Source: Methanomassiliicoccus sp. (GTDB lineage: Archaea; Thermoplasmatota; Thermoplasmata; Methanomassiliicoccales; Methanomassiliicoccaceae). From it: a stretch of 64,000 bases of DNA. The stretch spans positions 1 through 64,000 of the forward strand of contig JAWQJJ010000011.1 of the NCBI GenBank assembly GCA_033485155.1, in the 5' to 3' direction. Made by a program: the position numbers and the translations under genes. The notes below the pieces were generated by a model. The model saw only the letters and a program-made list of their open reading frames with translations, searched no databases and was not told the DNA's origin. Positions 2,048 to 11,983 of this stretch are shown in pieces (position 1 is the stretch's first letter; the number at the start of each line of letters is the position of its first letter).

Positions 2048-3235
2048 TCACGCCTCAGTCACATCTCTAACGATTGAACCATATCTGTGATGAGAGCCGA
2101 CAGTGATCTTAAAAAAGGTTCTCTCCAATCTTTTAATTTGGTCATCCGGCCTCTTTATGTATCGAATGACTCTATTATCTACCGTATCTGCTTGGCCTTT
2201 TTTCATTAAGTCAATAAATGCAGCTTTCCTCGATTCAAAAATACTCGAATTCCTTTCTTCATCCGGCAGAATCCTCTGGGCCACATCCCAAAATGATTGC
2301 CCCATCACTTCATCGGCATCTAACCCAGTAATTTTTTCCAATGATCGATTCCACTGAATGATGGTCCCAGCATCATCTAGCAGTAAGATGCCGTCGGTAC
2401 ATTGATCCACGAATGCCTTGAAGTCTTGCTCATTTTCTTTCAGTATTGCCTCTTTTTCTTTGTACTCAGTAATGTCCTGGGCTGCTCCGAATACCGTTAA
2501 TGGTTTACCATTGACATCACGGACGACTGTGTAAGTAAAAAGGATCAAGCGAATAGTCCCATCTGGTCGAATTATGCGATAGGTGCCCTGCCCGTTGTTG
2601 CTTTCTAAGGATAGGATACTGTCCCGAATCTTGACCATCATATCTACATCTTCAGGATGAACTATCTCCCTGATGTAGCGGTCAAATGTGATCTCGAGAC
2701 CATTACCTCGGTTGACATCGGAACCATAGATGTGCCGCAAATGACTACTATCTGCGGAAAAGGTCATCGCATGAACATCGAATGACCAATAACCGATATT
2801 GGCAAGATCGATGGCCGCCCTAAGCTTGGCGTTAGATGCGATCACGTTTTCCTCTGCTTTTCTTTTTTGTACAGTTACATCGATCTGGTGTTGCAGTTCT
2901 CTGAAACGAACTTCGGGTTGTCCTCCCTTTTGAATATAGAAATCTGCACCGGCATTCAACGCTTCGATGACCACTTCCTCTCGTCCTTTGCCGGTAAATA
3001 GTATGAATGGTATGGAGTTACCTCGAGAACGTAGGATTTTTAAATACTCTATGCCGTTGATGACTGGCATTTGGTAGTCAGATATGATGCAATCATATCT
3101 GTTGTGCTGTACCAAACTTTCCGCATCTTTTACGCTTAGGGCCGTATCGACCGATATTTTACCACATGATTCTAAAAAAACCTTCCCTATCTCCAATAAT
3201 GCAGGTTCATCATCAATATAGAGAATGTGAATCAT
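2048..3235 (-). CDS. response regulator with REC and two PAS domains, no kinase
   Basis: 395 residues. The REC receiver domain (about 1-120) has the acidic pair IDDE, the phosphoacceptor Asp in IISDYQMP (about residue 55) and the conserved Lys in FTGKGREE. Two PAS/PAC units follow (about 135-260 and 265-395), the first ending FGAAQDITEYKEKE and the second ending SIVRDVTEA. No histidine kinase or DNA-binding domain follows, so it probably acts as a phosphorylation-dependent PAS signalling partner rather than a direct transcription factor. It lies just downstream of the kai operon kinase on the same strand, about 350 bases away, and resembles the REC-PAS proteins at 10421 and 50589. ATG start. 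Confidence 0.85.
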   Translation of the reverse strand: MIHILYIDDEPALLEIGKVFLESCGKISVDTALSVKDAESLVQHNRYDCIISDYQMPVINGIEYLKILRSRGNSIPFILFTGKGREEVVIEALNAGADFYIQKGGQPEVRFRELQHQIDVTVQKRKAEENVIASNAKLRAAIDLANIGYWSFDVHAMTFSADSSHLRHIYGSDVNRGNGLEITFDRYIREIVHPEDVDMMVKIRDSILSLESNNGQGTYRIIRPDGTIRLILFTYTVVRDVNGKPLTVFGAAQDITEYKEKEAILKENEQDFKAFVDQCTDGILLLDDAGTIIQWNRSLEKITGLDADEVMGQSFWDVAQRILPDEERNSSIFESRKAAFIDLMKKGQADTVDNRVIRYIKRPDDQIKRLERTFFKITVGSHHRYGSIVRDVTEA

Positions 3236-3583
3236 TGCATCTCGAGCAGATTAATTGTGTTTTTAGATATTTGCCGTAGATATCCATTATGGTAATAGAC
3301 AATCGGTAACAGGTCCGATGCGTGTTATTCATTTCGTCAGTTGCCCCTAGCCTTGTTGCCGGCCAGGAGCAGGAGGTAGTTGCCGTTAAGGCGAAGCGTT
3401 GATGCAAAGGACTAGAGGCACCTGGTCGGCATATCTGGTTCTGAGTCGCGACTATAAGCCGGTTTGTCTGGCCAAGAGGCGGCCTACATTGCTATGAGTA
3501 TGAACCAGCATCTCCAGGCCACCTTAGATAGTTGATGCTCATCAATATTATGTACGGGTCTCAAGCCCCATTATCATTCGCAC
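3236..3583. other. intergenic stretch upstream of the REC-PAS gene
   Basis: About 350 bases without a convincing open frame. The AT-rich part next to 3240-3310 probably carries the promoter of the minus-strand REC-PAS gene. No repeat or RNA gene was seen. Confidence 0.4.
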
Positions 3584-5245
3584 TCATGTCGGTATTGTGA
3601 AGAAGAACGTCGTCCCCTTGCCTGGTTCGCTCTCGAACCATATTCTGCCGCCGTGTCGTTCGACGATCTTCTTGCTGATCGCCAGGCCGATGCCCGTCCC
3701 AGGATACTCCTCTCTGGTGTGCAGCCGGGAGAACATCTTGAACAGCTTGTCCTGGTACTTGGGATCGATGCCGATGCCGTTGTCCTTCACAGAGAAGACG
3801 TACTCGTTGTCGAAGGTGATTGAGGATACCTCAACCCTCGGTTCCCTATCGGAGAGGAACTTTATGGCGTTGGAAACGAGGTTTTGGAGGATCTGGGCGA
3901 TCTGCTGCTCATCGGCCCTGACGACCGGCAAGGGGCCGACCATCACCTCGGCACCAGCCTCTTCGATAGTGGCCCTTAGAGTTTCCAAGACCTGAGCCGT
4001 CAGATCGTTCATGTCGACCTCTTTCAATTCCATCGGCTGCGCATCGAGACGGGAGTACTGCAACAGATCGCCGATGAGTTCCTTCATCCGCAGCGACCCT
4101 TCAACGGCCGACCCCATGTACTCTTGGGCTTGAGGACTCAACTCACGGCTGTATCTTTTACTAAGCAGTGCCAAGTACATGGTGACCATTCGCAATGGTT
4201 CTTGTAGATCGTGCGAGGCGACGTAAGCGAATTGCTGCAGCTCTTCATTGGAGCGTCGAAGCTCTTCTTCCCCTCGCTTTCGTGCCGTGATGTCGAGGTT
4301 CATCCCAACCCACTTGACGATTCGCCCCTCCTCGTCACGGATCGGCGCAGCCCGCACGTTCGTCCATCTCCATCCGCCATCGGGACCCCGGAGGCGGAAT
4401 TCCGCATTCATATCGCTTCCCGCAGACAAAGCTTCTCTCCAGTGCCTCTCGGCGTATCCACGGTCGTCGGGGTGGGCTGCGTCCACCCACCCATAACCCA
4501 TCCACTCCTCGAGCGTTTGGCCAGTGTAAGTTCTCCACGAGGGCGAGTCGGCGATTACCTTGCCCGAGGCGTCCGTCTCCCATACGGCCTGTGAAGAAGA
4601 CTGGATGAGCACTCTAAATCGCTGCTCGCTCTCGCTCAGCTCCCTGGTGCGTTCCTGGACTTTCTCGTCAAGTTCGCCATATGCCTTTCTGAGGGCTTCC
4701 TCCGCCCGGATATGCTCGGACAGGTCTGCTAGTACGATGCAATGCATGGGCTCGCCCGCAGTCGGCAGGTAGCTTACCGACAAGTGCTCCGGGACCATCG
4801 TCCCATCGGCAGCCTTGAAACTCAGGTCCCCCCGTGCTGGCCGATCGATGCTTTGCTCGATGAGTTCTCGATAAGAGTAAACTTCTGAGGGGCATAGGAA
4901 GGTCTCCAGATTTATTCCAATGATGTTCTCGAGGGGGGCCTTCATCATATCGGCGAAGCTCTGGTTGCAAAATAATATGATGCCATCATGTGAGACGGTG
5001 ACCGCGCCCTCGCTCATCTGCTCGAATAGGACGCGATACGGCTCCTCCGCCCCTTTGAGAGTGAAGATGCGCTCTCCCTCCGGGGTCGATACCAGGATGG
5101 CATCAACCTCCCCGCTCAATATGGCCTTCAGCGTCCCCTCGCTCTCTGATAACCGCTCTTCGAGCTTCCCAACTTTGGCCCTCAAGCTTCTATTCTCGGA
5201 TGATAAACGGTCTTGGTCGGGAACATCTGCGTCTTCTGCTTTCAC
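3584..5245 (-). CDS. PAS sensor histidine kinase, last gene of the kai operon
   Basis: 553 residues, soluble (no membrane segments). A short N-terminal coiled coil (about 15-40) is followed by PAS 1 (about 66-180), a helical linker, PAS 2 with PAC (about 205-325, ending NLDITARKR), the dimerisation/phosphoacceptor domain with the H-box ASHDLQEP (His about 345), and the HATPase domain with N-box NLVSNAIKF, G1 DNGIGID and G2 GTGIGLA. It autophosphorylates on His and passes phosphate to a response regulator. The GTG start at 5245 overlaps the stop of the upstream kaiB by 3 bases, indicating translational coupling and one operon with kaiC-kaiB-kaiB. It is the obvious candidate output kinase of the Kai module. 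Its kinase core is strikingly similar to that of the gene at 7884. Confidence 0.93.
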   Translation of the reverse strand: MKAEDADVPDQDRLSSENRSLRAKVGKLEERLSESEGTLKAILSGEVDAILVSTPEGERIFTLKGAEEPYRVLFEQMSEGAVTVSHDGIILFCNQSFADMMKAPLENIIGINLETFLCPSEVYSYRELIEQSIDRPARGDLSFKAADGTMVPEHLSVSYLPTAGEPMHCIVLADLSEHIRAEEALRKAYGELDEKVQERTRELSESEQRFRVLIQSSSQAVWETDASGKVIADSPSWRTYTGQTLEEWMGYGWVDAAHPDDRGYAERHWREALSAGSDMNAEFRLRGPDGGWRWTNVRAAPIRDEEGRIVKWVGMNLDITARKRGEEELRRSNEELQQFAYVASHDLQEPLRMVTMYLALLSKRYSRELSPQAQEYMGSAVEGSLRMKELIGDLLQYSRLDAQPMELKEVDMNDLTAQVLETLRATIEEAGAEVMVGPLPVVRADEQQIAQILQNLVSNAIKFLSDREPRVEVSSITFDNEYVFSVKDNGIGIDPKYQDKLFKMFSRLHTREEYPGTGIGLAISKKIVERHGGRIWFESEPGKGTTFFFTIPT

Positions 5246-5577
5246 TTCATTCCTTCCACCTTATCGGTTTTTCCTGGTAATATCTCTAAGCCAAGAACGA
5301 CCTTTTCCTTGTTCGACATGTCCCCCACCAACTTCCTTAGCGGAAGGGGGAGCTCCCTGATGAGAGTAGGGGCAGCCAATATCTGTTCCTTCTTTGCGAG
5401 CTCCGGCTGCTGATAGATATCAATGATCTGCAATTCGTATCGACCTTTGAGCTCTTCCTCGCATATCTTTCGAATGTTCCTTATTGCATCCTGGGCCCTG
5501 GGAGTCATTCCTGTGACATAGAGCCGCAGTATGTACCTCACGTCGGCACTGGGATCCGTTTTACTTGCTTCAGACAT
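5242..5577 (-). CDS. kaiB: KaiB-like protein (copy next to the kinase)
   Basis: 111 residues, thioredoxin-like KaiB family. The N-terminal strand YILRLYVTG is followed by TPRAQDAIRNI, the conserved block QIIDIYQQPELAKKEQI, APTLIRELPLPLRKLVGD, and the C-terminal LGLEI that in cyanobacterial KaiB carries residues controlling the fold switch. Known role: KaiB binds the CI ring of KaiC and recruits output or antagonist proteins. ATG start with a purine-rich GAGGTAAG upstream. It lies 11 bases after the other kaiB and overlaps the kinase start, so the three are one transcript. An N-terminal extension of about 12 residues precedes the fold, unlike the short cyanobacterial protein. Confidence 0.93.
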   Translation of the reverse strand: MSEASKTDPSADVRYILRLYVTGMTPRAQDAIRNIRKICEEELKGRYELQIIDIYQQPELAKKEQILAAPTLIRELPLPLRKLVGDMSNKEKVVLGLEILPGKTDKVEGMK

Positions 5578-5588
5578 GGCGCATCCAC

Positions 5589-5897
5589 TTACCTCGTACC
5601 ACGATCTCGTATGTTCAAGCCGATGAGCACCTTTTCCTCGTTGGATAGGTCGCCAATGATCTTTCTCATCGGGGGAGGAAGCCTTCTTACCAGCGTCGGG
5701 ACAGCAACGATCTGGTCAACTTTGGCAAGTTGAGGATCTTTCTGCAGATCTATGATTTCGATATGAACTTCATAATCTGTAAGGTCCTCGCTCATCCTCT
5801 TCAAGTTGGCAATGGCTGCTAAGGACTTTGGGGTCTGACCAGCCACGTAGAGAACAAGGTCGAATGCCTCCCGCTTACTTTTTGCGTGTTCGACCAG
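5589..5897 (-). CDS. kaiB: second KaiB-like protein, probable CTG start
   Basis: KaiB family: VLYVAGQTPKSL, the block EIIDLQKDPQLAKVDQI, VPTLVRRLPPPMRKIIGD and LIGLNI. The first possible ATG/GTG/TTG in frame is a GTG at 5846, but that codon is the Val of the conserved YVAG motif, so starting there would delete the first beta strand. The matching sequence AFDLVLYVAG continues upstream in frame. Between the previous in-frame stop and 5846 there is no ATG, GTG or TTG. A CTG at 5897 lies about 8 bases after AAAAGGGG, a plausible ribosome-binding site, and would overlap the kaiC stop region; an ATT at 5903 is the alternative. The start is inferred; the family call is firm. It shares the operon with kaiC, the other kaiB and the kinase. 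Confidence 0.88.
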   Translation of the reverse strand: MVEHAKSKREAFDLVLYVAGQTPKSLAAIANLKRMSEDLTDYEVHIEIIDLQKDPQLAKVDQIVAVPTLVRRLPPPMRKIIGDLSNEEKVLIGLNIRDRGTR

Positions 5898-5898
5898 A

Positions 5899-7608
5899 TC
5901 AATCGCCCCTTTTACTGCTATTAGTCCTCATTATCCTCATATGTCTTCTGCTGGATTCGATCGCTTCCTTGCGCCTGTTCTCTGCTTCGATGCGCCTCTG
6001 CAAGTCCGCCTCTTTGTTAGCGAACTCGGCGCGCTGTGCCTCGATTTGACTTTCCAACACCTCGCGCTGCTGCTCAAGAGCGGCCTTGAGTCTATCGAAC
6101 TCCTCGGCCCGGATGACCTCTTCGGCCCTCTCCTTGGCCTCCTGGGCATAGCGAGCGGACCCGGTAAACACTCCGGCCGGGCCAACGTAGGGTGGGATGA
6201 GTTCGATGCCTTTGCTGGTTATATGGAACTCGCGAATCTGGTTGGAGTGCGCCATGCCTCTGGACTTAACCAGATGCAGGATGCGGTCGCTTTCACCATT
6301 GGACTCGATGCTTTCCAGAAAAATCCAGGTATCCACCAGCGAGGAGATCATCGAACTCTCTCTCGGCTGCTCGGCGTGCTTGAGGTCGGTGAAGAGTGAG
6401 GTGATGCCGCTCATCTTCAGGTAATCGGCCAAGCGGACGAGGGTCGAGCGGATCTCCGCCTCCTCGCCGATGGACATTAGGCTGCTAATGGGGTCGATGA
6501 CAACCACATCCGGCCTAAAGTCCCGGACCAACTTATGTATGGTTGCCAGGTGCATCTCCAGGCCGTATGAGGTCGGCCGGTCGGCGCGTATCCGCAATAG
6601 TCCCCTCTTGACGAAAGGCTGAAGCTCGATGCCGATAGCCCGCATGTTGCGGACCACCTGATCTGGCGATTCCTCGAAGGTGATAAAGAGTGATCTCTTG
6701 CCACTCTCGCAAGCCGCCCGAACGAACTCCATGCCGAAGCTGGTCTTCCCTGTTCCCGCCTGCCCGGTGATGAGGACGGTGCTACTCCTGAAGTACCCTT
6801 TCCCGCCAAGCATGGCATCCAAATCCAATATTCCAGTGGAGATGCGTTCATCGGTGACCTTTGCATCGAGGCCCAGGGAGGTCACCGGCAGCATGGAGAA
6901 GCCGTTCTCATCTATCAAGAACGGATATTCGTTCGAGCCGTGCGAAGAACCACGGTACTTGATGATGCGCATCCGCCTGGTGGCAATATTGCCGATGACG
7001 CGGTTATCTAGAACGATCACGGCGTCGGAGACGTATTCCTCCAGACCGTCCCTAGTTAACGTGTTCTCTCCCTTTTCGCCAGTGATGACGGCGGTAACGC
7101 CCTTCTCCTTCAGGAAACGGAACAGGCGGCGCAGTTCGGACCGTAGGATGACCGTATTGCCGAAGGTCGAGAAGATGGACTCTATCGTATCCAGGACAAC
7201 ACGCTTGGCCTTCACAGAATCGATCGCGTAACCAAGGCGGACGAATAACCCCTCCAAGTCATAATCGCCGGTCTCCACGATCTCTGCCGCCTCGATCTTG
7301 ACGTGATCGATCGCCAGCATGTTACCCTCCTTGAGCGCCTTGATATTGAAGCCGAGGGAGGCGACGTTCTGCGCTAGCTCATCTTCCGTTTCCTCGAATG
7401 AAAAGAATACCCCGGGTTCGCCGTACTTCATGGCGCCGTTGACCAGGAACTCCATGGAGAGCAGCGTCTTGCCGCTGCCAGGTCCACCGACTATCAATGT
7501 CGGTCGTCCGCGGGGGAGGCCGCCCTGAGTGATCTCATCGAAACCTTCGATTCCCGTTTGTGCCTTCGGCAAATCCTTACTCATCGATGACTGCGATCTT
7601 CTAGCCAT
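5899..7608 (-). CDS. kaiC: KaiC-like dual-domain RecA ATPase with C-terminal coiled coil
   Basis: 569 residues with two KaiC domains. CI has Walker A GGPGSGKT (41-48) and the catalytic Glu pair in FSFEETEDE (72-73). CII has Walker A GQAGTGKT (282-289) and FEESPD (312-313). Aligning around MISSLVDTWIFLE, the cyanobacterial autophosphorylation pair Ser431-Thr432 corresponds to Ser422-Ser423 here. After CII the protein ends in a charged coiled coil (about 487-555) instead of the cyanobacterial KaiA-binding tail, as known for some non-cyanobacterial KaiC proteins. Expected to form a hexameric ATPase/autokinase that binds KaiB. ATG start with AAGGTGAT upstream. First gene of kaiC-kaiB-kaiB-kinase. 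Single-domain KaiC relatives are common in archaea; this two-domain form with adjacent kaiB genes is much less so. Confidence 0.94.
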   Translation of the reverse strand: MARRSQSSMSKDLPKAQTGIEGFDEITQGGLPRGRPTLIVGGPGSGKTLLSMEFLVNGAMKYGEPGVFFSFEETEDELAQNVASLGFNIKALKEGNMLAIDHVKIEAAEIVETGDYDLEGLFVRLGYAIDSVKAKRVVLDTIESIFSTFGNTVILRSELRRLFRFLKEKGVTAVITGEKGENTLTRDGLEEYVSDAVIVLDNRVIGNIATRRMRIIKYRGSSHGSNEYPFLIDENGFSMLPVTSLGLDAKVTDERISTGILDLDAMLGGKGYFRSSTVLITGQAGTGKTSFGMEFVRAACESGKRSLFITFEESPDQVVRNMRAIGIELQPFVKRGLLRIRADRPTSYGLEMHLATIHKLVRDFRPDVVVIDPISSLMSIGEEAEIRSTLVRLADYLKMSGITSLFTDLKHAEQPRESSMISSLVDTWIFLESIESNGESDRILHLVKSRGMAHSNQIREFHITSKGIELIPPYVGPAGVFTGSARYAQEAKERAEEVIRAEEFDRLKAALEQQREVLESQIEAQRAEFANKEADLQRRIEAENRRKEAIESSRRHMRIMRTNSSKRGD

Positions 7609-7620
7609 GGTGATATCACC
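7609..7620. promoter_or_regulatory. perfect 12-bp palindrome containing the kaiC ribosome-binding site
   Basis: GGTGATATCACC directly abuts the kaiC ATG. In the message, GAAGGTGAT inside it matches the anti-Shine-Dalgarno and serves as the ribosome-binding site. Because the 12 bases are self-complementary, the site could be hidden in a hairpin or bound as DNA by a dimer. Regulation is inferred. Confidence 0.45.
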
Positions 7621-7639
7621 TTCGGGGGAGTCAAGCTGC

Positions 7640-7656
7640 CATCATGCAGAATGATG
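7640..7656. repeat. inverted repeat in the kaiC leader
   Basis: CATCAT and ATGATG flank GCAGA about 35 bases upstream of the kaiC start. It lies between the AT-rich promoter region (about 7690-7740) and the gene, a typical place for an operator. Short arms, so it may be chance. Confidence 0.3.
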
Positions 7657-7689
7657 CATGGTGCTACCAGCCACGCCGAATGAGCTTAT

Positions 7690-7740
7690 ATCTGAACAGA
7701 CTCTACTTATATCATCTTATTATATTGTGTTAATAATTAA
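7690..7740 (-). promoter_or_regulatory. AT-rich promoter region of the kai operon
   Basis: Read on the minus strand, the stretch contains AATATAATAAG and GATATAAGTAG, both TATA-like, about 90-120 bases before the kaiC ATG. It is the only strongly AT-rich region upstream of the operon, so it probably drives kaiC-kaiB-kaiB-kinase. Confidence 0.4.
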
Positions 7741-7883
7741 ATATTAGATGGAAATCGGCGATCGGAACATTTCGGGCAGTTCAGATTGCACTCATGCGGT
7801 CGGATCTATACGTTCCGCGAATTTTTATTTCAGCATCTGAGCAACGATATACAACTGGATCGAAAGCTCCCTTATTGTTCGCC

Positions 7884-10124
7884 TTACGCCGGGATAGCGA
7901 AGTAGAACGTCGTCCCCTTGCCCGATTCGCTCTCGAACCATATTCTGCCGCCGTGACGCTCCACGATCTTCTTGCAGATCGCCAAACCTATTCCCGTCCC
8001 AGGATACTCTTCCTTGGTGTGCAGGCGGGAGAACATCTTGAACAACCTGTCTGCGTATCGGGGATCAATGCCTATCCCGTTATCCTTCACACAGAAGACG
8101 AACTCATTGCCATAGGTTATCGCCGAGACCTCTACCCTCGACGGCTTGTGGCCATGGAACTTGATGGCGTTGGAGATCAAGTTTGTTAGGAGTTGCTTCA
8201 TCTGCGTATCGTCGGCACGGATGGTTGGCAAGGGGTTAACGATCACCTCGGCCTCTTTCTCTTCGATGGCAGACCGAAGATCATGGAGAACGGTCTCTGC
8301 TTCGATGTTCATGTCAACATCTTCCAGATTGACCGGCCTCGAATCGATACGTGAATATTCCAAAAGGTCATCGATCAGCAGTTTCATTCTCAACGATCCG
8401 TCGACAGCGAACCCCATGAACTCCTTGGCCTGAGGACTGAGCTCATTGCCGAACTTCTTTTCTAGAAGGCCAAGGTAGGAGGTGACCATTCTCAATGGTT
8501 CCTGGAGATCGTGCGAGGCGACGTAAGCGAACTGTCGCAGCTCCTCGTTCGAACGCTTGATCAGTTCCTCGCTTCGCTTGCGTTCCGTTATATCGACGCT
8601 GGTGGTAATCACCAGATCCTTTCCGAGCGGCGTTGTGGTGATTTGATAGTCGCGATTATTGATGTCGGAGTGTTCCTCAGCGGTGACCGGCTCTCCCGAG
8701 GCTTTCATCTCTCGTACGATATCAAGCGCAGCAACGGCCATGTTAGGGCTGGCCGTATCGTAGTATGACTTACCTCTCAGCTCCTCGATCGAGCTAGCTC
8801 CATAGACCTCTAGGGCGGCGGGATTGGCTTCGACGAGTACCGCATCTATGACCTCACCCCAACTGTTGTAAACCAGGCGGCGTAAGCTAACTCCCTCTTT
8901 GATATTCTCGAACAGTCCCTTGTACTTGGTCTCGCTTTCTCTCAGCGCGTCTTCGGTCTTTTTCAATTCAGTGATGTTTCTGGCGACATGCACGGTCCCC
9001 TTGATCCTGCCGAGTTTATCGATTATGGGCGTCGTGCTCACCAGGAAGTCTCCACCAAGTCTCTCCTCGTGAACCTCCGCCACATGCTCCTTGCCATCGG
9101 CTAGCGTTAGAACGTGAGGGCAGAATTCTGGAGGGCAATTGGTGCCGTGCACACAATGAAAACACTTCTGCCCCACATATTGCTCGGGGTCTGGCGAGCC
9201 CATGTGCTCGAGCATCGCTTTGTTCGCGCGCACAATGTTCTGATCGGCGTCCAGGATGGCGATCAGATCGGGAATGTGATCGAAGGTCTGCTCCCACTCA
9301 AGTTTAGCATTTAGTAAAGCTTCCTCCACTTTCTTGCGATCGGTGACATCATTCCAGAAGACGGCGATGCCTTCTGGAATTGGATATATGATCTGCTCGT
9401 AATCCCGGCCGGTCATAATCCCCCGCTCTTCTATAGTGGCCACGACCCGTTCCTCCATTACTTTTTGATAGAGCGCCGCTGCCTTCGTTGTTGTGTACAG
9501 TGGGAACTCCCTCCTGAGGTCCTTGCCCACGAGATCTTCAGGTTTCCGACCGACATTCTCTGCTGCCACCCTGTTGACGTATTTGAACTGCCAGTCCTTG
9601 TTCAGTGAGAAGAAGCCTTGATCGATATGCTCAAGGATCGTGGACATCTCCCCCTTCGTTCTAGCAACGGATTCCTCCCACCGCTTCCGCTCAGTTATAT
9701 CCCGTATGGCGATCGTAGCACCGGTAGAACCTTTGGCATCCTTGAACAGGGTAGAAGTGGCCTCACCGGGGAAGGTACTGCCGTCCTTACGTCGGAAAAT
9801 AAGCTCGGATGTCGTCGTGCCCTTCTCCGACCGCTCTCGTATTGCTCTATCCATCCTCTCGTCGTTGACCGTTATCCCGCTCCTGCCAGCAGCTCTGAGC
9901 TCGGCCTCGGTCATGCCGAACATCTTCTGCGCAGCGGGGTTCGCCGCGAGGATGGTCCCATCCGGTTTGCCGATGAACATGGCATCGGCGTAGTTATCGA
10001 AGAAGGAGCGGAAGCGGACCTCGCTCTCGCTGAAACCACCCCCATCAATCAGCTCATGAGTCGTCTCGCCGTTCCTTCCCCTTTCCGAGCTCATATTGAT
10101 GGCCGCCTGAATGCTGCCCCGCAT
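7884..10124 (-). CDS. multi-PAS sensor histidine kinase
   Basis: About 746 residues from the ATG at 10124. Four PAS domains follow one another (endings IAIRDITERKR, VFWNDVTDRKK, HVARNITELKK and TSVDITERKR), then the phosphoacceptor domain with ASHDLQEP, then the HATPase with N-box NLISNAIKF, DNGIGID and GTGIGLA. The third PAS contains a cysteine cluster, CFHC then NCPPEFCPH, that could bind a metal or respond to redox. The frame extends to a GTG at 10271, but those extra residues look non-coding and a TATA-like CATATATTAA lies inside that stretch; an ATG at 10094 is the other option. The kinase core is nearly a copy of the kai operon kinase. It lies upstream of kaiC with about 275 bases between, in its own transcription unit. 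Confidence 0.9.
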   Translation of the reverse strand: MRGSIQAAINMSSERGRNGETTHELIDGGGFSESEVRFRSFFDNYADAMFIGKPDGTILAANPAAQKMFGMTEAELRAAGRSGITVNDERMDRAIRERSEKGTTTSELIFRRKDGSTFPGEATSTLFKDAKGSTGATIAIRDITERKRWEESVARTKGEMSTILEHIDQGFFSLNKDWQFKYVNRVAAENVGRKPEDLVGKDLRREFPLYTTTKAAALYQKVMEERVVATIEERGIMTGRDYEQIIYPIPEGIAVFWNDVTDRKKVEEALLNAKLEWEQTFDHIPDLIAILDADQNIVRANKAMLEHMGSPDPEQYVGQKCFHCVHGTNCPPEFCPHVLTLADGKEHVAEVHEERLGGDFLVSTTPIIDKLGRIKGTVHVARNITELKKTEDALRESETKYKGLFENIKEGVSLRRLVYNSWGEVIDAVLVEANPAALEVYGASSIEELRGKSYYDTASPNMAVAALDIVREMKASGEPVTAEEHSDINNRDYQITTTPLGKDLVITTSVDITERKRSEELIKRSNEELRQFAYVASHDLQEPLRMVTSYLGLLEKKFGNELSPQAKEFMGFAVDGSLRMKLLIDDLLEYSRIDSRPVNLEDVDMNIEAETVLHDLRSAIEEKEAEVIVNPLPTIRADDTQMKQLLTNLISNAIKFHGHKPSRVEVSAITYGNEFVFCVKDNGIGIDPRYADRLFKMFSRLHTKEEYPGTGIGLAICKKIVERHGGRIWFESESGKGTTFYFAIPA

Positions 10125-10420
10125 CCTCTCTGAAATGTTTGGCCATCCCGCTGACGTTGTTAGATATGCTTGGGACGTTAATATATGACTTAGGTCGGCG
10201 GTCGACAATGTTGTGACAATCTTACGATCACTGGTGAAAGGAAGTAGCAAGAAGGGTTTCAGATTGACCACGACGACGCCGTCAATATTCTATGGTGGAG
10301 TAAACGATTCATACAAAACTCTACAGTGGATTATTCATTATTAACACGATATCAATTTTGGTTTGCAGAACAGCAATATTTCTATCCTCGGAGCAATAAT
10401 TTTCCTTCAGAGCGAAGGAT

Positions 10421-11983
10421 ATGCGTGTACTGTATGTGGATGATGAAGCTCCAATGTTGGAACTCGGAAAATCTTTTTTAGAATCGTCGGGGGATCTGCA
10501 TGTGGACACGTTCATTAGCGTTGCCGATGCAGAAAATGCGATGCTTCATACAAAATACGACGCCATTGTATCCGATTACCAGATGCCAGTTAGCAATGGC
10601 ATAAATTTTCTTAAGAACCTGAGGGCTCGAGGAAATAAGATACCATTTATCCTCTTTACAGGCAAAGGGCGTGAAGAGGTCGTTATCGAGGCGTTGAACT
10701 CCGGGGCGGACTTCTACCTGCAGAAGGGTGGGAACCCTACAGCGCAGTATGTTGAGCTGGAGCACAAGATCAAGGAAGCGGTCCGTCGGAGCCGGGCTGA
10801 AAGAGCGTTGCATGAAAACCAAGAGCGTCTCAAGAAAGCCCACGCTCTTGGCCAAACGGGGTGTTGGGAATACAGCCCAGACTCGCCGCGCATGATATGG
10901 GGCTCCGAGGAAGGATTTGCCATTTTCGGCATGAATCGCCATAGTGGTGAGGTGCCTGTCGAGGATATCGAAGCCTGCATCATCAATCGAGAGGTTGCGC
11001 ACCAAGCACTGGTGGATGCTGCCAGCATTGGAAAGAAGTATGATTTGGTTTATGAGATACACCCGGCCAATGGCGGTGCTCCCCGAACCATTCATTCTAT
11101 CGCCGAGCTCGAAAGGGATGAATCGGGAACAGTGATCAAAATATTAGGTCTATTGCAAGACATCACCGTGCAAAGACAGGCCGAAGAAACCCTGCGCAGA
11201 TCTGAGGAAAAATACGCCAAAGTATTCCAGAATAGTGCAGCCAATATTATCCTTGCTCGAGTTAGTGATGGACACATCGTCGATGTTAACGAAACCTGGT
11301 TGGAAAATACAGGCTACCCAAGAGAAGATTTCGTCGGACACTCAACGATTGAGCTAGGGATATGGAAACATCCCGAGGAGTGGGATGAATTTATCCGTTG
11401 CCTTAGAAATTACGGTTCGGTGCGGGATTGGGAGAGCGAGATCGTTCGGAAGGACGGTAGAATGGGCGTAATGCTCATGTCTGCACAATTACTGACATTG
11501 GGAGGGGTCGAGATGATGTTGGGCTCGTCGACGGATATTACCGAGCGTAAGCAGGCGGAAGAGGCTCTAAACCAATCAGCCCAGCTCTTTAGAGGAATTG
11601 TGGATAACATACCTGTCCGAGTGTTCTGGAAGGATGAGAACCTAACCTTCCTCGGCTGCAATATGGCATTCGCGCAGGATGCTGGATATCCGGATCCTGA
11701 GGACGTGATCGGGAAAAATGATTTTCAAATGATATGGGCTGATCAAGCCGAGATCTATCAAAAAGACGATCGGCAGGTCATCGAAAGTGGGGCACCCAAA
11801 TTATTGATAAGGGAGTCCCAAAGAACTCCCGATGGCAGGATCATCACCCTCCTAACTAATAAGATACCCCTGAGGGATAAGAAAGGAGAGGTGGTTGGTG
11901 TTCTCGGCACCTATATGGATATCACCGAATGGAAGAATGATGAGCATGCACCGATACAGTCTGATAAGAAAGTGGGCATGTAG
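10421..11983 (+). CDS. response regulator with REC and three PAS domains, no kinase
   Basis: 520 residues. REC domain (about 1-120) with VDDE, the phosphoacceptor in IVSDYQMP (about residue 53) and FTGKGREE; then PAS 1 (about 135-255, ending LLQDITVQRQ), PAS 2 (about 262-380, ending STDITERKQ) and PAS 3 (about 387-505, ending YMDITEWKN). The protein stops about 15 residues after the last PAC motif, exactly where a related gene (50589) continues into a histidine kinase core. It may be a kinase that lost its catalytic end or a genuine REC-PAS adaptor. ATG with GAAGGAT upstream. Divergent from the multi-PAS kinase at 7884, with about 300 AT-rich bases between the two starts. TAG stop. Confidence 0.85.
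   Translation: MRVLYVDDEAPMLELGKSFLESSGDLHVDTFISVADAENAMLHTKYDAIVSDYQMPVSNGINFLKNLRARGNKIPFILFTGKGREEVVIEALNSGADFYLQKGGNPTAQYVELEHKIKEAVRRSRAERALHENQERLKKAHALGQTGCWEYSPDSPRMIWGSEEGFAIFGMNRHSGEVPVEDIEACIINREVAHQALVDAASIGKKYDLVYEIHPANGGAPRTIHSIAELERDESGTVIKILGLLQDITVQRQAEETLRRSEEKYAKVFQNSAANIILARVSDGHIVDVNETWLENTGYPREDFVGHSTIELGIWKHPEEWDEFIRCLRNYGSVRDWESEIVRKDGRMGVMLMSAQLLTLGGVEMMLGSSTDITERKQAEEALNQSAQLFRGIVDNIPVRVFWKDENLTFLGCNMAFAQDAGYPDPEDVIGKNDFQMIWADQAEIYQKDDRQVIESGAPKLLIRESQRTPDGRIITLLTNKIPLRDKKGEVVGVLGTYMDITEWKNDEHAPIQSDKKVGM

Follow-up and report, generated by a model that had tools for sequence, protein, structure and literature searches.

A kaiC-kaiB-kaiB-histidine kinase operon of Rhodobacter sphaeroides type, probably acquired from bacteria, in an archaeon of the order Methanomassiliicoccales

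The KaiBC system of Rhodobacter (Cereibacter) sphaeroides is described as a KaiA-free hourglass whose cue is the ATP-to-ADP ratio, and in which a dodecamer bundle, formed by the KaiC tail, changes register upon phosphorylation (PMC10076222); three prolines, through their isomerisation, are reported to set the hours-long fold switch of KaiB (PMC11551320). A survey of 11,264 genomes reports KaiB in four archaeal genera and concludes that outside the cyanobacteria KaiBC timers must signal by a route that differs from the known output path (PMC5520375). Clusters of kaiBC followed by histidine kinases or GGDEF/EAL proteins have been noted before (PMC3164672), and a kaiC-kaiB-PAS/histidine kinase operon is already known (PMC4794148); the accessible parts of these two papers make no mention of a shared N-terminal output module. 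We describe here a kaiC-kaiB-kaiB-histidine kinase (HK) operon on the minus strand of contig JAWQJJ010000011.1 of the archaeon Methanomassiliicoccus sp. (GenBank assembly GCA_033485155.1), positions 1 to 64,000 of which were analysed and are termed the window. A preliminary description of this DNA had proposed a KaiA-free timer or stress switch, probably gained from bacteria, with output through the adjoining kinase. No report of kaiB in Methanomassiliicoccales was found in the open-licence literature, nor, in the open-access literature searched, one of an archaeal version of this operon or of the shared output module considered below.

Domain matches confirm that a two-domain KaiC, two KaiBs and a PAS kinase lie on one strand, as first described. 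The KaiC protein matches PF06745 over two KaiC ATPase domains (E 7e-116) and scores 697 bits (cut-off 408) with the model NF006799, "circadian clock protein KaiC"; KaiB1 and KaiB2 match PF07689 (E 4e-24 and 1e-27, respectively) and are the only two KaiB matches in the host genome at E 0.001; the kinase has two PAS regions, HisKA and HATPase_c. Its first ~190 residues, termed HKn, are treated separately below. The tight spacing given earlier also stands, with 11 bases (5578-5588) between kaiB1 and kaiB2 and four bases shared by the 3' end of kaiB2 and the start of HK. Searching for the four-gene order elsewhere brought to light two more genomes of the host order and bacteria of three phyla, and since the order recurs in this way the arrangement is real, not chance.

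Among solved proteins, KaiC is closest to that of R. sphaeroides (8dba, 8fwi and 8db3, at 594-622 bits, 8dba scoring 622), the next kind of solved KaiC scoring 374 bits; R. sphaeroides KaiC in plasmid records is 53% identical to it. Aligned to the R. sphaeroides protein, it keeps the catalytic Glu-Glu pairs of both RecA-like domains and the W419 and R450 positions, and at the phosphosites S413-S414 it has a Ser-Ser pair (S422-S423), not the cyanobacterial Ser-Thr pair; position 421, where the R. sphaeroides sequence aligned has Leu and the paper names Val, was not scored. Beyond the P463 position the tail runs on for 97 aa, a length of some 50 aa being enough to count as long. The closest solved KaiB to both KaiB1 and KaiB2 is that of 8fwj (100 bits each), and the three fold-switch prolines, read from the sequences, are kept in both. 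By its domains, tail, serines, adjoining kaiB and prolines the operon is assigned to the R. sphaeroides type of KaiBC, with a tail-bearing KaiC of the kaiC2 subgroup. These matches also support the earlier proposal of a KaiA-independent type of system; no KaiA match was seen among seven window proteins scanned, the whole genome not having been searched for KaiA.

KaiB scores above the Pfam cut-off in three of 147 Methanomassiliicoccales genomes, the window's own, G331 and G223, and two more of the order show partial matches below it; no KaiB match came from any of the 14 further genomes listed for the window's family, six of them of the same genus, and a search for the empty site in a same-genus genome yielded, within the fetched stretches, a single weak match at nucleotide level. 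In both G331 and G223 the kaiC-kaiB-kaiB-HK order is seen again, with short overlaps or gaps, and KaiC is 75% and 71% identical, respectively, to that of the window; the trio spans three genera and two families. The G223 kaiC is broken by a contig end, a piece matching the missing part lying on another contig, and the G331 contig (L010) is identical base for base to the public record JACXTP010000028.1 (L014). In G331 a small protein overlapping the kinase end resembles a receiver domain by eye. Within the Thermoplasmatota (389 genomes, two of the three operon genomes included), the best KaiC outside the operon genomes reaches 41% identity, and its fetched flank showed no KaiB; the remaining KaiCs among the matches listed at E 1e-40 are 28-34% identical.

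The KaiC searches also covered 199 Planctomycetota, 68 Hydrogenedentota and 299 Pseudomonadota genomes, in which tail-bearing KaiCs are 45-58% identical to the window protein; a scan of genome contigs by chosen patterns gave only four loci, and viral contigs scanned with KaiC gave no match. Neighbourhoods were read at 29 loci, among them the archaeal trio to which the window belongs, plus the outgroup L131. The 29 took in all KaiC matches of at least 45% over most of the protein, L130 (40%), and five of 13 plasmid matches of at least 50%, the other eight being further Cereibacter records; fragments (such as L052, L053 and L059) were left out. The long KaiC tail is present in 26 of the 29, and downstream of it lie KaiB (26/26, with two KaiBs in 14) and HKn (26/26, that of L116 being partial, the first third only at positions 3-58, and that of L123 cut by the contig end). 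Neither KaiB nor full HKn was found in the fetched flanks of the tail-less L117, L129 and L130, or of L131, whose tail was unmeasured. L117 and L129, both from the planctomycetote G626, carry KaiCs near the tail class. The Pararhizobium copy of the four-gene set sits on a plasmid typed as conjugative.

The pairing of HKn with this class was followed beyond these loci. In the host order, at E 1e-10 and with at most 22 candidates scored per genome, HKn occurs in three of 147 genomes, once each, and these are exactly the three with the KaiB pair, no second HKn appearing in the window's own genome at that threshold. Among the Pseudomonadota, at E 1e-20 and with at most 12 candidates scored per genome, it occurs in nine of 299, eight of which are the eight with the tail-bearing KaiC class; in the ninth, G825, the match is confined to the PAS part, as is an additional one in G862. 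As controls we took 28 less similar KaiC loci that have a KaiB match (L049-L052, L066, L075-L096, L101), whose flanks were read over about 1.5 kb, or less where a contig ended. At none of them does an HKn match reach the first 25 model positions, and ten match later, mostly PAS, positions. With no such start at any of the 28 and one at only two of four intermediate loci, HKn goes with the tail-bearing class and not with KaiB alone; the broader rule that HKn goes with every KaiBC operon was rejected on the other-class KaiB loci, which lack it in their short flanks. A search of 72,556 plasmid records returned one HKn, in the Pararhizobium kai operon; as a test of specificity this is weak, since the search did not return four further plasmid kai operons (L018, L019, L021 and L022), although the profile does find their HKn. 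Across the sets searched, HKn and the tail-bearing KaiC class are tightly paired, and the pairing fades at the class edge.

The window HKn is 54-56% identical to those of the other archaeal kai output proteins and 28-42% identical to the bacterial ones. AlphaFold models it as a helix (10-42), a low-confidence hairpin containing GEVDAILV and then a PAS domain (pLDDT 74), with good quality over most of the PAS part and poor quality in the hairpin. The Foldseek matches listed, FixL, YtvA and 3mfx among them, are PAS or LOV proteins, and an HKn profile run against solved proteins covers, among the matches listed, essentially the PAS part. No N-terminal KaiB-like domain, the hallmark of SasA, was detected in the kai kinase at E 0.001, and the modelled helix, hairpin and PAS differ from a KaiB-like thioredoxin. 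Behind HKn, the effectors vary from operon to operon. A Pfam scan of the output proteins of 22 of the 26 operons (leaving out L021, L122, L123 and L128) found HisKA or HATPase kinases, HWE kinases in L018, L019 and L022, hybrid kinases with receivers in L020, L116, L118 and L125-L127, a sigma-54 activator in a Planctomycetota operon (L112:4212-6515) and a GGDEF-EAL protein in one of Pseudomonadota (L124:2347-5919); in L121 only PAS domains were seen at E 1e-8. Confinement of HKn to the tail class favours its being a reader of KaiBC and the weaker pairing at the class edge argues the other way; the co-encoded kinase is supported as the likely output. A bolder proposal, which we hold tentatively and consider somewhat unlikely, is that HKn serves as a portable module dedicated to reading the tail-type KaiBC timer, with an N-terminal helix pairing with the KaiC tail coil or sensing its phosphorylation-linked shift of register; that evolution has plugged it into HisKA, HWE and hybrid kinases, a sigma-54 activator and a GGDEF-EAL protein; and that timer and reader reached the methanogens together, the reader becoming fused to a host core.

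The catalytic core of the kai kinase tells a different story from its N-terminus. It is closest to kinases of its own genome, which account for 17 of the 20 further matches with identities of 53-71%; the kai kinases of G331 and G223 have cores 56-58% identical to it, and the bacterial kinases, which were taken from kai loci, have cores of 38% or less. In the core tree the bacterial cores are split from all archaeal ones at 93/98, with the caveat that L021, one of the bacterial rows, represents a kinase next to the kai one, and that the core match of L123 likewise falls outside the kai output gene. By sequence the kai kinase is a mosaic of the kai-linked HKn and a host-type HisKA-HATPase core, most simply explained by a joining of the putative reader module to that core. 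The host genome itself has an expanded family of 17 other histidine kinases with closely similar HisKA-HATPase cores.

The two different KaiBs, singled out in the preliminary description, are indeed present but are not special to the archaeon, being an old pair kept in bacterial operons too. A tree of 40 KaiBs from 26 operons is divided by one branch (98/92) into two sets, one holding all 14 first-position KaiBs and ten single KaiBs, the other all 14 second-position KaiBs and two single ones (L016 and L125), although the bootstrap had not fully settled; the two paralogues thus hold fixed positions in 14 of 14 two-KaiB operons. Given the branch that separates first- from second-position KaiBs, the pair is most simply read as an old duplication with fixed order, and both members are present in the archaeon. 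The stricter statement that the second-position KaiBs form one clade was rejected as worded (p-AU 0.0003), since L016 and L125 fall among them. The AlphaFold model of KaiB2 has the ground-state order of elements; with a mean pLDDT of 60 from four sequences, we draw no conclusion from it on fold-switch preference. G223 encodes a third, divergent KaiB-like protein away from its kai operon (L012:6797-7165), which has lost at least the PTL-motif proline, and no KaiC was recognised among the listed open frames neighbouring it.

The frame of kaiB1 is present as first described, but a feature missed then is that it has no ATG, GTG or TTG start that would cover the first strand; the only listed start, GTG at 5846, cuts into FDLVLYVAGQ. 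There are two candidate minor starts: an ATT (5903-5901), which overlaps the kaiC stop as ATTGA, and a CTG (5897-5895), whose distance to the conserved strand equals that of the second ATG of G331 kaiB1. The anomaly may reflect biology, decay or a base error.

Trees place the KaiC of the archaeal trio with bacterial KaiCs and not with the other archaeal rows. In a quick tree of 66 rows, drawn after two duplicates had been omitted along with 11 Pseudomonadota rows belonging to the 34-38% class, the trio lies inside a 28-row, otherwise bacterial, set at support 95; in a careful tree of 36 rows it is held together at 100/100, beside two Hydrogenedentota at 88/89. A single clade of five archaeal KaiC rows, including that of the Thermoplasmatota genome G1043, was rejected (p-AU 0.0007), the group having been picked after the quick tree was seen and with long branches present. 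Transfer within the host order was also considered: KaiC and KaiB1 join the window with G331, but we do not claim it, since a grouping of G331 with G223 is not rejected (p-AU 0.22). GC and GC3 of the operon fall within the spread of sampled window genes, so that base composition gives no sign of recent transfer. The bacterial transfer proposed at the outset is upheld in part: KaiC, KaiB and HKn have bacterial affinity, but the kinase core is of the host's own kind. The bacterial affinity of the kai module is well supported by these comparisons, and we conclude that the module is real, conserved and probably transferred from bacteria.

Coordinates of the operon, its parts and its flanking genes are collected in the table. 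Two REC-PAS proteins with similar start sequences (2048-3235 and 10421-11983) bracket the operon and the neighbouring kinase, and a protein of the archaeal flagellin/pilin family PF01917 is encoded nearby (1082-1615), as expected of an archaeal contig. Upstream of kaiC no perfect match to a TATA-like pattern was found, and one with a single mismatch (7741-7734), of a kind also expected by chance. A scan of 3300-7900 for sigma-70 promoters and terminators gave two and three sites, not above shuffles, and so provides no evidence of transcript ends; no sigma-70-type site falls in 7609-7883 upstream of kaiC.

Table. Positions in the window of the kai operon, its functional parts and adjacent features
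Feature	Position	Strand	Remarks
kaiC	5899..7608	minus	two-domain KaiC ATPase/kinase, 569 aa, ATG start
Ser422-Ser423 codons	6340..6345	minus	position of R. sphaeroides KaiC phosphosites S413-S414 by alignment
C-terminal KaiC tail, 97 aa	5902..6192	minus	aligned gap-free with the tail of R. sphaeroides KaiC as far as query residue 547
kaiB1, first-position KaiB	5589..5897	minus	start uncertain, drawn from CTG 5897; alternative ATT 5903
kaiB2, second-position KaiB	5242..5577	minus	111 aa, ATG start
PAS histidine kinase (HK)	3584..5245	minus	553 aa, GTG start
HKn, N-terminal kinase module	4676..5242	minus	common to output proteins of bacterial operons with tail-bearing KaiC
HisKA-HATPase core of kai kinase	3587..4285	minus	53-71% identity to 17 other kinases of the same genome
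AT-rich stretch upstream of kaiC	7609..7883	minus	presumed promoter region
REC-PAS-PAS protein, next gene downstream	2048..3235	minus	possible phospho-acceptor, judged from position
Multi-PAS histidine kinase upstream	7884..10271	minus	core 71% identical to kai kinase core

The working that we consider probable, though well short of certain, is that of an R. sphaeroides-type KaiBC operon, gained from bacteria by an ancestor of some Methanomassiliicoccales and acting as an energy-driven hourglass or slow switch, whose state is read by HKn and relayed by the host-type core to receivers. By analogy with R. sphaeroides KaiBC, KaiC would autophosphorylate at high ATP with no need of KaiA; KaiB, as it switches fold, would slowly bind, speed ATP hydrolysis and, once the ATP-to-ADP ratio drops, bring KaiC back to its unphosphorylated state. 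HKn would read the state of KaiBC, and the HisKA-HATPase core would pass the signal to the archaeon's receiver proteins. Autophosphorylation, KaiB binding, the ATP/ADP cue, the reading by HKn and any biological rhythm are all inferred.

Several observations weigh against this working, among them that this host has no known daily cue. The allosteric network of R. sphaeroides KaiC is partly changed in the window protein (Y436 to His, L438 to Val, V449 to Ile), and in the G331 KaiC (L010) the first phosphosite Ser is His (MIHSLVD), G223 and the window keeping Ser-Ser. kaiB1 lacks a standard start and has the longest end branch (1.07) of the three archaeal KaiB1s. For HKn, the genome counts cover the scored candidates given above; the model was built from 15 of the 26 operons, though the remaining 11 of 11 also match; and the divergent between-class loci L048, L064, L065 and L094 all have KaiB but only two have the HKn start, these two matches beginning at position 13 or earlier with 54 and 43 bits. 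As to origin, the branch around the 28-row bacterial-type set, at 95 in the quick tree, is at 83/53 in the careful one; the sister group of the trio is not firm, with 88/89 in one tree and 73/74 in another; and the archaeal sampling is of Thermoplasmatota, leaving room for a route through another archaeon. Within that phylum KaiB is not unique to the operon trio, for G1043 (L101) has a KaiB match of 52-53 bits beside an other-class KaiC, 34% identical; by its sequence L101 is a KaiBC locus of another, unrelated kind.

Methanogens, such as those of the host order, need not be exposed to light, and a kai operon of Legionella is reportedly linked to stress response, going by the title of a paper. 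Both count in favour of an ATP- or redox-stress switch without timing, in which the same proteins would serve as an energy-charge sensor setting kinase output, as does the nature of the R. sphaeroides cue, which is the ATP-to-ADP ratio itself (PMC10076222). Retention of the slow-switch prolines in both KaiBs and of the whole operon in three genomes points away from such a switch, though neither separates it from a timer, and we regard it as a serious possibility with something over a one-in-three chance. Decay of the operon, the module no longer working after loss of the standard kaiB1 start, would fit the lack of an ATG, GTG or TTG covering strand 1 and the long kaiB1 branch; yet the other three genes are conserved and intact, kaiB1 itself has an open frame that preserves the switch prolines and the C-terminal region, both CTG and ATT figure among listed minor starts, and the assembly may contain a base error; we consider decay improbable.

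Vertical descent, with KaiBC-HK ancestral in the order or in archaea and lost in most lineages, draws on the presence of the operon in three genera of two families with KaiCs 71-75% identical, on the KaiB match beside the other-class KaiC of G1043, and on the report of KaiB in four archaeal genera (PMC5520375). It sits poorly with a KaiB cut-off passed by only three of 147 genomes of the order and by none of the 14 others of the family, with a nearest other Thermoplasmatota KaiC at 41% and without KaiB in its fetched flank, and with rejection of the single clade of five archaeal KaiC rows; we allow it a small chance. Contamination or misassembly, bacterial DNA having entered an archaeal bin, is very improbable indeed: KaiC is bacterial-like and the genome is listed with 3.04% contamination, but the operon is found in three separate genomes of the order with KaiC 71-75% identical, the kinase core is of own-genome type, and an archaeal flagellin/pilin-family gene lies about 2 kb from the operon end.

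HKn offers a concrete, testable candidate reader for the open question of KaiBC output outside the cyanobacteria. The archaeal operon would be a natural transplant, a two-KaiB timer moved across domains and joined to a host-type core, and could show how a clock-like device gets wired into a new cell; should the portable-reader proposal hold, such a device would have been rewired across domains of life by gene fusion.

Set beside known systems, the operon resembles most closely the kaiC-kaiB-PAS/HWE kinase operon of R. sphaeroides (PMC10076222; PDB 8DBA, 8FWI and 8FWJ), with which it shares a long-tailed Ser-Ser KaiC, a kaiB directly downstream of kaiC and then a kinase with an N-terminal HKn; it differs in having two KaiBs where the bacterium has one, a HisKA in place of an HWE core and an archaeal host, the KaiCs being 53% identical. 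The four-gene order is shared with plasmid p3 of Pararhizobium qamdonense (L020, kaiC-kaiB-kaiB-hybrid kinase) and with Planctomycetes GWF2_50_10 (L015), which have both KaiB paralogues in the same positions and HKn on the output protein, but are bacterial, have other kinase cores (HATPase plus receiver in L020) and KaiCs 53-54% identical. The kaiC-kaiB-PAS/HK operon of Rhodopseudomonas palustris, a proto-circadian timer, is of the same kind to judge from the description in its paper (PMC4794148). The KaiABC-SasA clock of Synechococcus elongatus is alike in the homology of KaiB and KaiC and in output through a kinase; unlike it, the archaeal KaiC is Ser-Ser, not Ser-Thr, and no KaiB-like domain was found in the archaeal kinase. 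What sets it apart as new from the known kind of operon is that its host is an archaeon, that its kinase has a host-type core and that the pair of KaiBs is retained.

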